Shown here in pieces: positions 759 to 33,747 of a stretch of 33,747 bases of DNA. Under the pieces are notes generated by a model. The model was not told the origin of the DNA, did no database searches, and saw only the letters and a list, made by a program, of their open reading frames with translations. The stretch's first letter is position 1. Each line of letters opens with the position of its first letter. The DNA is from Candidatus Zambryskibacteria bacterium RIFCSPLOWO2_01_FULL_35_19 (lineage in GTDB: Bacteria > Patescibacteriota > Minisyncoccia > Phycocordibacterales > WO2-35-19), in contig MHWA01000020.1 in the NCBI GenBank assembly GCA_001825335.1, positions 1 through 33,747 of the forward strand, read 5' to 3'. The translations under genes were made by a program, and so were the position numbers.

Positions 759-834
759 TACAATAATTAAAACCTATTTCTTTTGATTTAAAGTTATTCA
801 CAGAAAGTTTTGTTGATAGGTGTATAATGTATTT

Positions 835-1902
835 ATGGAAAACAAAATTATTCGTGTGGCTATAAATGGTGCTGGTAGAATTGGCCGAGCTTTTTTGCGT
901 CTTGTAGAAAATAATCCGCAAATAGAGGTAGTGGCTATAAATGACTTGGGTAATATAGAAAATATTGCTTATCTTTTGAAATACGATACAGCTTATGGGG
1001 CCTTACAGTTTGGAGTGAAAGTAAGTGATGACAAAAAGAAATTATTAATTAGTAAGTCCCACTTCGCTGAAGCTTCGCGGGATACTCAAGAAATAAATTT
1101 CTTGAGTGAAAAAGAGCCAGCCAATTTACCTTGGCAAGATTTAAATATTGATATAGTACTAGAATCCACAGGAGCTTTTACTAAATTTGAAACAGCTAAA
1201 GCTCACATAACAGCCGGAGCCAAGCGTGTAGTTATCACCGCTCCTACCAAAGATTCACCAGCAGATGATACTCAAGCTATGATACTTATGGGTATTAATG
1301 AAGAGAAATTAAAAACCTGCCAGATTTCCTCAAATGCTTCTTGCACTACAAACGCCGGCTCACCGCTTATACAAATTTTGAATGAAAAAATCGGCATAGA
1401 AAAAGCAGTTTTAAATACCATACACGGCTATACCGCTAGTCAAAGCATAGTAGACGGACCAAACAAAAAAGATTGGAAAGAGGGTAGAGCGGCCGCTCAA
1501 AATATAATCCCCACTTCTACCGGAGCCGCTATTGCTGTCACTAAAGTCTTGCCAGAATTAGAAGGCAAATTTGACGGCGTAGCTATGAGAGTGCCAGTGG
1601 TAGCTGGCTCTATAGTAGACGTCACCTTTATAGCCAAAAGAGAAACAAATGTAGAAGAAATAAATAATATTTTAAAAGAAGCATCCAAAGAAGAGCGCTG
1701 GCAAGGCATTTTTGCGGTTACCGAAGACCCAATAGTTTCCAGTGACATCATTGGCTCTCTTTATGGCTCTATTGCTGATTTAGGTTTAACTAGAGTAATA
1801 GATAAAAATCTGGTCAAAGTCTGCGCTTGGTATGACAACGAAATGGGCTACACCGCCACTCTCATCAAGCATGTTTTGAAAATGGGAGAGTATTTGAAGT
1901 AA
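835..1902 (+). CDS. gap: Glyceraldehyde-3-phosphate dehydrogenase, type I
   Basis: RVAINGAGRIGRAFLR, SNASCTTNAGSP, WYDNEMGY; ATG at 835 preferred over GTG at 820 because TATAAT lies at 823-828. Confidence 0.95.
   Translation: MENKIIRVAINGAGRIGRAFLRLVENNPQIEVVAINDLGNIENIAYLLKYDTAYGALQFGVKVSDDKKKLLISKSHFAEASRDTQEINFLSEKEPANLPWQDLNIDIVLESTGAFTKFETAKAHITAGAKRVVITAPTKDSPADDTQAMILMGINEEKLKTCQISSNASCTTNAGSPLIQILNEKIGIEKAVLNTIHGYTASQSIVDGPNKKDWKEGRAAAQNIIPTSTGAAIAVTKVLPELEGKFDGVAMRVPVVAGSIVDVTFIAKRETNVEEINNILKEASKEERWQGIFAVTEDPIVSSDIIGSLYGSIADLGLTRVIDKNLVKVCAWYDNEMGYTATLIKHVLKMGEYLK
1057..1082 (+). repeat. Palindromic repeat family P1 in gap
   Basis: TCCCACTTCGCTGAAGCTTCGCGGGA, encoding part of SKSHFAEASRDTQ. 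Confidence 0.85.
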
Positions 1903-10864: not shown

Positions 10865-10983
10865 AACTCTTTCTTGTCACAAGTTTTATAGTGCACGGAT
10901 ATTTTTTTGCTAAAAAATTCCTCGTGCTCGCTCCGTCGAGACTCGCAAGGCACTCTAAAACTTATGACTACGACGAGTTTTAT
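10861..10983. repeat. 123-bp foldback element between rpmE and prfA (family P2)
   Basis: Nested inverted repeats ATAAAACTC/GAGTTTTAT and AAGTTTTATAGTGC/GCACTCTAAAACTT (13/14); core shared with 31139-31198. Confidence 0.8.
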
Positions 10984-14475: not shown

Positions 14476-14558
14476 TCCAATAGTTTATAGATTATAGACA
14501 AAAAATCAAGTGTTTGACTTATTAATTTTCCAAAAGATCATTCAAAAAATTAATAAAC

Positions 14559-14596
14559 TACACCACACTTTTTTAATAAAGAAGGGGAACCCTTCT
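14559..14596. repeat. Palindromic repeat family P4, intergenic copy
   Basis: 36/38 identical to 25018-25055; contains AGAAGGG-gaa-CCCTTCT hairpin. Confidence 0.85.
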
Positions 14597-24701: not shown

Positions 24702-25322
24702 ATGAAAACTCCAGAAAAATGGATAATTGGTATAGATGAAGTGGGCAGGGGACCACTCGCGGGGCCAGTCAGTGTAGGAGTTTTTATGACAGATAAAAAA
24801 ACAGGAAACTGGATTTTAAAAAATATTTTTGAAAATAAATTGCGGGATTCTAAAAAACTAAGCGCAAAAAAAAGAGAAAAAAATTATAAAAAATTTTTAG
24901 AATTAAAAAAATTAAATAAAATTTCTTTTTCTGTATCTCACATTTCAAACAAAATAATAGATAAAAAAGGGATTTCAAAAGCAATCCAAACAGGAGTGAA
25001 AAAATCTCTCAAAGAATTACACCACACTTTTTTGATGAAGAAGGGGAACCCTTCTTTCATTAGACTTGATGGATTGTTGAAAGCGCCAAAAGAATTTAAA
25101 AATCAAAAGACAATTATAAAAGGGGATGAAAAAGATGTTTTTATTGCTTGCGCTTCTATTGTGGCTAAAGTCTCTCGAGACAACTTAATGTGTAAATTAG
25201 CTTTAAAATACCCTCAATACAATTTTGAAACCCACAAAGGATATGGCACCCTCCTCCACCGCCATCTCATTAAAAAACTTGGCCTAAGTGAGATACATAG
25301 AAAAAGTTTTTGTAAAATTTAA
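24702..25322 (+). CDS. rnhB: Ribonuclease HII
   Basis: IGIDEVGRGPLAGPVSVG, LRDSKKLSAKKRE, ASIVAKVSRDNLM, KGYGT. Confidence 0.94.
   Translation: MKTPEKWIIGIDEVGRGPLAGPVSVGVFMTDKKTGNWILKNIFENKLRDSKKLSAKKREKNYKKFLELKKLNKISFSVSHISNKIIDKKGISKAIQTGVKKSLKELHHTFLMKKGNPSFIRLDGLLKAPKEFKNQKTIIKGDEKDVFIACASIVAKVSRDNLMCKLALKYPQYNFETHKGYGTLLHRHLIKKLGLSEIHRKSFCKI
25018..25055 (+). repeat. Palindromic repeat family P4 embedded in rnhB
   Basis: TACACCACACTTTTTTGATGAAGAAGGGGAACCCTTCT encodes HHTFLMKKGNPS in frame; 36/38 match to 14559-14596. Confidence 0.85.
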
Positions 25323-30170: not shown

Positions 30171-32240
30171 TTATACAAGTTTAAAATCCAAAGTTTTGCG
30201 GGTAAGGTCAGCAGAGACAAGGCGGACACGGAGGGAATCACCAAGGGAGAATTTCTTTTTGGAATTTTGCCCAATTATAGCGTAATTTTTTTGGTCCAGT
30301 TTGTAGAAGTCATCGCCCAAATCTTTGATGCGCACCAACCCTTCCACTTTAGTATCAGGGTCTTCGACATACATACCCCATTCGGTCACTCCAGAAATAA
30401 CAACATCAAATTCTTCTCCGATTTTATTTTGCATAAATTCTACTTGCTTATATTTGATACTATCGCGCTCCGCTTCTTGAATAGTAACTTCTTTATCACT
30501 AGCGGCTACTGCAATCTTTTCAAATTTTGCTATTTCATCTTTAGCAACAGGTAAATTTTTGATATGTTTTTCTAAAATTCGATGTATTAAAAGATCAGGA
30601 TAACGACGAATAGGAGAAGTAAAGTGAGTATAATATTGAAAAGCTAAACCAAAATGCCCTATATTTTTTGTAGAATACACCGCTTTAGCCATACTACGAA
30701 TAGTTGCAGTTTTTATGAGTGATTCGGAAGCGTGACCCTCAATTTGTTTCAGAAGTATATTTATATCTTTAGCCGAAACCTCTCCGTTGTGAATTGGTAA
30801 TTCATGACCTAAAGCTCTGACAAAAATCGCCAATTCTTCTATTTTCTCCATCTTTGGTAATTTGTGAATACGAAAAATAGAAGCGCCACCTCTTTTACCT
30901 ACCTTATCACTAATAAACTTAGCCACTTCTCTATTAGCAAGAAGCATCCACTCCTCAATCATTTTCATAGTGTCAAGTCGTGGTTTTTTATAAATCCTTA
31001 TTGGTTTACCTTTGTCATCTAATTCAAACTTAACTTCATCTGTTTCAAATTCTATGGCTCCATTTTTTTTGTTTTCTGCACGATAAATATTGGCAAGACG
31101 GTTAAGTTCTGAAAGTTCCTGAAAAAAACTTCCTGAGCGTGCCTTGCGCAACTCGACGGAGTGAGCAGAGGAATTTCCCACTAGGGAAATATCCGTGCTA
31201 AGGGAAGGAATGTTTTTTTCAGGAACTTTTTGATCAAGAATTTCCTGCGCCTCTTCGTAAGAAAATCTTTTATCTGAATTTATTATTGTCCTGCCAAACC
31301 AACGCTCCAAAACTTTGCCAGTATTTTTTTCAATATCAAAAACAGCCGAAAAAGCATAGCGATCAACATTTGGTTTAAGTGAACATAAATCATTACTTAA
31401 AATTTCAGGAAGCATAGGAATTGTTCTGTCTACCAAGTATGTCGAAAAACTTCTATTTAGAGCCTCTTTATCCAAAGGAGTATCAGGACGTACAAAAAAA
31501 GAGACATCGGCTATATGAACACCAACTCTTATTTTACTGTCACCTAAATCTTCATATGAAAGTGCATCATCAAAATCTTTAGCATCCGCTGGGTCTATTG
31601 TAAAAGTAGTGATATCGCGGAAATCCTTTCTGTTTGTAGTATCAAAGGGCATTTTTGACACTTTTTCTGCCTCTGCTTCTACTTCAGAAGGAAAATTATA
31701 AACAATACCCTTATCCAAAAGGATTGAACGCATCTCTGTTTCGTGTTCGCCCTTTTTACCAATAATAGAAATAATTTTACCTTTTGGATTAAGATTTGGA
31801 TTGACCCAATTTATCTCTACTAAAGCTTTTTGCCCAACATCTGATGTTGGATTAATATCCACTTCTTTATAAAATTTAAAATCATCTGGCTTAAAAAATA
31901 TCCGAGAACCGGATTTTTCTATTGTTCCGACAAATTTAGTTTTATTTCTTTTTATTATCTTAGTGACTCTGCCTTTTTTTCTGCTTGCCCCGCGAAGCTT
32001 CTGCGAAGTGGGGTCTTTACCTATAACCTCTACTTCTACTTCGTCTTTATCTAAGGCACAATTTAAATTTTCTTCAAAAACAATAATATCATCACCCATC
32101 CCTCGACTAGCTCGGGATCCCGCCTCTACGGGCGTGACAAAACCAAGCGGTTTAGCTGTAATTTTGATGACACCTTTTAAAATTTTTGATGAGTTGGTTT
32201 TTTTATTTATTATTTCTTCCTTTTCTCTTTTTTTATGCAT
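30171..32240 (-). CDS. rnr: Ribonuclease R / RNase II family exoribonuclease
   Basis: TIDPADAKDFDDALS, GVHIADVSFFVRP, RTIPMLPEILSNDLCSLKP, FTSPIRRYPDLLIHR, C-terminal S1 domain. Confidence 0.95.
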   Translation of the reverse strand: MHKKREKEEIINKKTNSSKILKGVIKITAKPLGFVTPVEAGSRASRGMGDDIIVFEENLNCALDKDEVEVEVIGKDPTSQKLRGASRKKGRVTKIIKRNKTKFVGTIEKSGSRIFFKPDDFKFYKEVDINPTSDVGQKALVEINWVNPNLNPKGKIISIIGKKGEHETEMRSILLDKGIVYNFPSEVEAEAEKVSKMPFDTTNRKDFRDITTFTIDPADAKDFDDALSYEDLGDSKIRVGVHIADVSFFVRPDTPLDKEALNRSFSTYLVDRTIPMLPEILSNDLCSLKPNVDRYAFSAVFDIEKNTGKVLERWFGRTIINSDKRFSYEEAQEILDQKVPEKNIPSLSTDISLVGNSSAHSVELRKARSGSFFQELSELNRLANIYRAENKKNGAIEFETDEVKFELDDKGKPIRIYKKPRLDTMKMIEEWMLLANREVAKFISDKVGKRGGASIFRIHKLPKMEKIEELAIFVRALGHELPIHNGEVSAKDINILLKQIEGHASESLIKTATIRSMAKAVYSTKNIGHFGLAFQYYTHFTSPIRRYPDLLIHRILEKHIKNLPVAKDEIAKFEKIAVAASDKEVTIQEAERDSIKYKQVEFMQNKIGEEFDVVISGVTEWGMYVEDPDTKVEGLVRIKDLGDDFYKLDQKNYAIIGQNSKKKFSLGDSLRVRLVSADLTRKTLDFKLV
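31112..31229 (-). repeat. 118-bp foldback element in rnr (family P2)
   Basis: Perfect 18-bp inverted repeats AAAGTTCCTGAAAAAAAC/GTTTTTTTCAGGAACTTT around a core shared with 10891-10953. Confidence 0.85.
31988..32013 (-). repeat. Palindromic repeat family P1 in rnr
   Basis: CCCCGCGAAGCTTCTGCGAAGTGGGG; other copies at 1057-1082, 33295-33320, 33334-33363. Confidence 0.85.
32099..32132 (-). repeat. Repeat in rnr N-terminal region (family P3-like)
   Basis: CCCTCGACTAGCTCGGGATCCCGCCTCTACGGGCG encodes PVEAGSRASRG between GFVT and MGDD. Confidence 0.55.
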
Positions 32241-33294: not shown

Positions 33295-33363
33295 CCCCGC
33301 GAAGCTTTTGCGGAGTGGGGCATATTAACTCAACCCCACTTCGCCCTAACGGGCTTCGCGGGG
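33295..33363. repeat. Two P1 palindromes in opposite orientation in the 16S leader
   Basis: CCCCGCGAAGCTTTTGCGGAGTGGGG (33295-33320) and CCCCACTTCGCCCTAACGGGCTTCGCGGGG (33334-33363). Confidence 0.85.
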
Positions 33364-33380: not shown

Positions 33381-33747
33381 TAATTTTAGAGTTTGATCCT
33401 AGCTCAGGATGAACGCTGGCGGCGTGGATAAGGCATGCAAGTCGAATGGGTTTAGACCCATGGCGAACGAGGTAGTAACACGTAGGTACGTACCCTTTAG
33501 TTGGGCATAACTAGCCGAAAGGTTAGATAATTCCCAATGGTCCCTGAGACTTCGGTCGAAGGGTAAAGATTTATCGCTAAAGGAACGGCCTGCGACCTAT
33601 CAGCTAGTTGGTGAGGTAATAGCTCACCAAGGCTATGACGGGTAGGGGGGGTGAGAGCCCGATCCCCACCGATGGAACTGAGAAACGGTCCATACACCTA
33701 CGGGTGGCCGCAGTCGAGAATCTTCCGCAATGGGCGAAAGCCTGACG
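33381..33747 (+). rRNA. rrs: 16S ribosomal RNA, 5' part, truncated by window end
   Basis: AGAGTTTGATCCTAGCTCAGGATGAACGCTGGCGGCGTG from 33388, through CCTACGGGTGGCCGCAG. Confidence 0.95.

Follow-up and report, generated by a model that had tools for sequence, protein, structure and literature searches.

The window analysed here, 33,747 nucleotides in length, is the whole of contig 20 of the home genome (G000; 510 kb, 20 contigs). It carries four copies of a GC-rich hairpin sequence, designated P1, in two protein genes and in the 16S rRNA leader, arranged as follows:

820..1902, + strand: gap (GAPDH), host gene, with Pfam domains Gp_dh_N/C
1057..1082, - strand: P1 copy in gap, peptide SHFAEASR, net insertion 30 bp (10 aa)
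30171..32240, - strand: rnr (RNase R), host gene, with Pfam domains RNB and CSD2
31988..32013, + strand: P1 copy in rnr (gene on the - strand), peptide PTSQKLRG, followed on the gene strand by the tag CAAG
33295..33320, + strand: first P1 copy in the 16S rRNA leader (the 16S model match begins at 33381)
33334..33363, - strand: second P1 copy in the 16S leader, opposite in orientation to the first; its inner stem (GCCC-GTTA-GGGC) is longer

All four copies had been claimed in an earlier note made from the letters of the window, and all were present where it had placed them and with the sequences it gave; the number of chance matches expected in the shuffled window was 0. Likewise supported were its suggestion of a CPR-like genome, the host being probably a Patescibacterium, and its observation that the gap and rnr copies share their orientation with respect to the gene but are read in different frames. 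About 319 kb (the window plus sampled stretches) were inspected directly, and the remaining sequence was covered by genome-wide searches. In the home genome, the motif search that the note had proposed returned 9 P1 matches with 3 or fewer mismatches, and the reversed control gave 0, a frequency far above control.

Aligned copies define a P1 unit composed of an outer stem (commonly with the arms CCCCGC/GTGGGG), a conserved GAA/GAA internal loop, whose invariance is partly by construction because the core was fixed by the search pattern, an inner stem that covaries and, on one side only, a tag (5'-CYTG in P1 orientation). The sequence had been described as a palindrome; it is not a simple one and instead forms a hairpin that contains a G-T wobble and a 3x3 internal loop (GAA/GAA). 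The unit is about 30 nt long: a 4-nt loop gives 30 nt, the length also of the cleanest insertions (30 bp), and extension of the inner stem raises it to 33 or 36 nt. The GC inner stem varies in length through complementary changes and ends in a short loop, with the variants CCTTCGG, TCTTCGA and TCCTTGCGGA on the complementary strand. Of 116 copies, 70 have C-G and 28 have T-A as the outermost pair. Directly outside the hairpin, the tag reads CAAG or CAGG (CARG) in the complementary orientation, equivalent to 5'-CYTG in P1 orientation; it was found on one side in 45 of 113 copies, whereas other offsets gave 0-6 and the opposite side 0-2. Another 17 non-canonical copies, with other outer stems and outside the search pattern, kept the core and often the tag, and the reversed control yielded 1 match in all.

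Covariation was scored on 41 distinct copies with a 4-nt loop, after thinning of near-duplicate canonical copies and omission of L349, L354 and L372, which have no outer stem. In this alignment, 94% of the cells were paired, compared with 79% after shuffling, and the covariation score of 0.459 (shuffled, 0.188) was reached by 0 of 500 shuffles. Slid versions of the alignment were all lower, with 29-52% paired. RNA folding gave -12.8 kcal/mol for the P1 strand and -7.5 kcal/mol for its complement, the P1 strand being more stable because of the GAA/GAA internal loop and the G-T wobble.

The exact P1 pattern, CCCGCGAAGC-N(2-14)-GCGAAGTGGG, was present in 5 of 98 relatives (control, 0) and in 27 of 384 genomes sampled across the phylum (7%; control, 0). 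In a GTDB scan of 85,488 species, about 53 of the 80 titled matches listed came from named CPR lineages and 13 from other bacteria, the rest being unnamed; the CPR lineages among the matches listed comprised Nomura-, Zambryski-, Staskawicz-, Davies-, Woese-, Roizman-, Berkel-, Peri-, Peregrini-, Uhr- and Shapirobacteria as well as others. Several of the non-CPR matches listed are probably due to chance, since they are GC-rich and without the tag. The family spans many CPR lineages, which is invisible from one window. In genome G031, a related core has been amplified to about 30 matches (loci L373-L396), many of them within a larger inverted repeat, CTTCCCCTCT...AGAGGGGAAG, that has a CTTG tag inside; the composite element consists of 10-bp outer inverted repeats enclosing a P1-like hairpin. 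This amplification indicates that copies multiply within a genome. Transfer of P1 by phages was considered and set aside, with 1 exact match among 2.9 million viral contigs.

Comparison with congeners, also proposed in the earlier note, revealed filled and empty alleles and supports the in-frame insertion of a palindromic element. The gap copy adds exactly 10 aa, which are absent from 24 of 24 aligned relatives, including G005 (92% identical), and from the best solved-structure match. A P1 copy in valS of G004 likewise adds 10 aa and is lacking from nine homologues. In uvrC of the home genome, the 3' copy adds 10 aa and is common only to the close relative G005, whose uvrC lacks the two N-terminal copies of the home genome and bears another insert; these differing places point to insertion that is recent on the scale of these species. 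The rnr copy adds 8 residues relative to G003, G006 and G007 (net +24 bp relative to G006), and aligned congeners lack the inverted pair of the 16S leader. Inspection by eye showed no target-site duplication at gap, rnr and valS. Elements of several families occupy one spot in rsmA across several congeners, and the same applies to a loop in rnr, which fits the idea that both spots are permissive loops that collect inserts.

P1 copies were classed as CDS copies by a single criterion, location inside an open reading frame of at least 150 aa. P1 is somewhat depleted in genes without exclusion from them: 69 of 116 copies (59%) lie in such frames, compared with 73.5% of random positions in the same loci. 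Insertions into protein genes, essential ones among them, are usually in frame. The hosts include polA, lig, uvrA, recG, gatA, tsaD, TGT, POR, a ribonucleotide reductase and several tRNA synthetases, as well as dprA and, both assigned by eye from sequence, dnaG and rsmA. Since all six combinations of frame and orientation are used, in unrelated proteins, the peptide is not what is conserved; as the earlier note had proposed, conservation concerns DNA or RNA, the motif being far more frequent than in the control and the encoded peptides absent from homologues. A loop length of 1 mod 3 (4, 7, 10 or 13, making the unit a multiple of three) characterised 60 of 69 CDS copies, compared with 29 of 47 other copies (p=0.003). 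GC-rich genomes may have contributed chance matches to the untitled loci (some of those from L121 onward), and restricted sets serve as a guard; with named CPR records and congeners only, the corresponding values were 40 of 42 and 17 of 24 (p=0.009).

RNA genes also serve as hosts, and in two genomes the hairpin lies inside RNase P RNA:

L143, 507-859: rnpB with P1
L075, 1035-1398, - strand: rnpB with P1

In both rnpB copies, the stable P1 strand is the one in the transcript, as it is in the 16S leader.

P1 is, in our judgement, quite probably a non-autonomous mobile hairpin element of the REP/RPE type. Such an element would insert into intergenic DNA, protein genes and RNA genes without evident target duplication, and genic insertions would survive if their added length is a multiple of three and they fall in a permissive loop, or if their position is tolerated by a structured RNA. 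Variable-length alignment positions suggest that the survivors sit in loops. The strand asymmetry of the unit (wobble, G-A pairs and one-sided tag) suggests recognition as single-stranded DNA, for which an HUH-type enzyme acting in trans would be a candidate. Against a mobile element of this type count the failure to tie any transposase to P1, with 5 of 28 P1-bearing assemblies giving no Y1 match, the low copy number of canonical P1 (1-6 per genome), the restriction of the exact form to 7% of the sampled phylum genomes, the lack of strictness of the tag (45/113) and net insertions that are not always 30 bp (rnr +24, rsmA about +21). As a more speculative extension, which we hold only tentatively, the GAA/GAA loop and CYTG tag may mark a CPR-wide superfamily of single-strand hairpin transposons that passes between lineages with the help of a so far unrecognised enzyme and has added length, more than once, to essential proteins and to RNase P RNA.

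Specific mobilisation of P1 by the RAYT-like Y1 transposases of these genomes, as in a classic REP/RAYT system, is less likely than not. Its appeal lies in a layout like that of REPs, with a 5' tag and a mismatch-bearing hairpin, and in the abundance of Y1_Tnp genes, which were found in 64 of 98 relatives; among 28 P1-bearing assemblies, 23 have IS200-like Y1 transposases and 5 (incomplete MAGs) gave no Y1 match. In addition, the excess of P1 cores correlates weakly with the Y1 count (Spearman 0.30, p=0.003; Fisher p about 0.05), in a comparison that takes no account of phylogeny. However, P1 did not bracket a Y1 gene, and no transposase could be tied to it, among about 50 Y1 loci examined. 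Many recognisable RAYT-like Y1 genes are instead flanked by their own near-perfect palindromes, other than P1, and Y1 enzymes were for this reason not assigned as the P1 mobiliser. Individual candidates were also rejected: palindromes of the ACAATGG(G)CGCCATTGT type flank the C14 RAYT on either side, and the P1 copy nearby sits in dprA; at L143, a seeming RAYT next to P1 resolved into P1 inside rnpB, which adjoins a RAYT fragment.

A role as a functional RNA element (processing site, protein-binding hairpin or terminator) with its structure under selection would agree with the better folding of the P1 strand and with the presence of this strand in the transcripts of the 16S leader and the two rnpB genes. 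This reading is nevertheless improbable, as both orientations occur in CDS, where the less stable strand is more often sense (43 copies, compared with 26 for the more stable one), and as P1 sites are not conserved between congeners. DNA-uptake genes are commonly encoded by CPR bacteria, and the conserved core is short, both of which would suit a competence or DNA-uptake sequence accumulated through biased transformation; the few copies per genome (9 relaxed matches in 510 kb), the long unit, the covarying stems and the 30-bp insertions at empty sites are unlike an uptake word and make this very unlikely. Even less credence can be given to P1 as a conserved peptide module of its host proteins: in-frame peptides do recur (PTSLKLRG, SHFAKASRD), but the six frame and orientation combinations in unrelated proteins, whose homologues lack the inserts, refute it.

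Among known systems, RPEs (e.g. RPE-1, RPE-4 and RPE-6) are palindromic elements of bacteria with small genomes, inserted in frame into genes that are unrelated to one another and probably functional (PMC10969869, PMC3733652). The likeness to RPEs suggested in the earlier note holds for the in-frame insertion of a palindromic element into functional genes and for the empty sites in relatives, whereas membership is not supported, given the size, tag and frame usage: the first-described RPEs are ~150 bp long with a conserved encoded peptide, and P1 is about 30 bp long and occurs in all frames, with no peptide conserved. According to Di Nocera et al. 2013, REPs carry a one-sided GTAG or CGTC tag, some tagged REPs are intragenic, often in DNA-repair genes and tRNA synthetases, RPE-4/6 were identified as CGTC REPs, and CGTC REPs have no dedicated transposase (PMC3733652). 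The RPE-4/6 tag is CGTC, and P1, with its CYTG tag and GAA/GAA loop and its occurrence in CPR, is set apart from the RPEs by description. With GTAG/CGTC REPs, P1 shares a 20-40 bp hairpin, an unpaired tetranucleotide tag on one side, the occurrence of dimers and the presence of copies inside genes; it differs from them in its CYTG tag, which is less strict, in the conserved symmetric internal loop and in its low copy number. REPs are mainly extragenic, with the RAYT flanked by the element, whereas many P1 copies are genic (69/116) and no RAYT association was found. As in REPIN/RAYT systems and TIR-associated Y1 transposases, P1-bearing genomes contain palindrome-flanked Y1_Tnp genes, but these palindromes belong to non-P1 families (e.g. 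that of the 14556/25015 repeat in the window). P1 is closer to an intragenic REP-like hairpin than to an RPE and is not a GTAG or CGTC REP; as its tag, internal loop and hosts differ from those of tagged REPs, it is a separate variant rather than a member. A search of the open literature (subscription journals being outside its scope) found no description of such elements in CPR, which is weak evidence of novelty.

Rickettsia and a small number of species with REPs have been the best-known examples of in-frame palindrome insertion; to these P1 adds many orders of a very large and mostly uncultured bacterial radiation, in which congeners show cleanly filled and empty sites. P1 supplies CPR proteins and RNAs with lineage-specific insertions and offers a way to date gains as well as a concrete hairpin for finding the mobilising enzyme. 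A caution for alignments is that short peptides specific to CPR may be mobile DNA.

Other repeats and inserts were noted alongside P1. Positions 14556-14596 and 25015-25055 of the window carry a 41-bp repeat (93% identical) with a GAAGAAGGGGAACCCTTCTTC palindrome, which also adjoins Y1 transposase genes on contig 1 of the home genome (L213 2012-2038) and in G005 (L212); given this proximity, the repeat is probably the cognate of that RAYT. Another GC-rich repeat lies at 31136-31167, in frame in rnr (AHSVELRKARS), and again at 10925-10956, upstream of prfA; congeners have other inserts in this rnr loop. At 32100-32142, rnr contains a further GC-rich, insert-like stretch (VEAGSRASRG) that is lacking or different in relatives. 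The uvrC gene of the home genome (L022 9520-9580) bears a different insert, FLLPSLSQGEGQGVRS, in common with G005, and rnr and rsmA of G004 (L159, L037) both carry the in-frame insert TRPPRIRESVAGG, which is derived from a different palindrome family.
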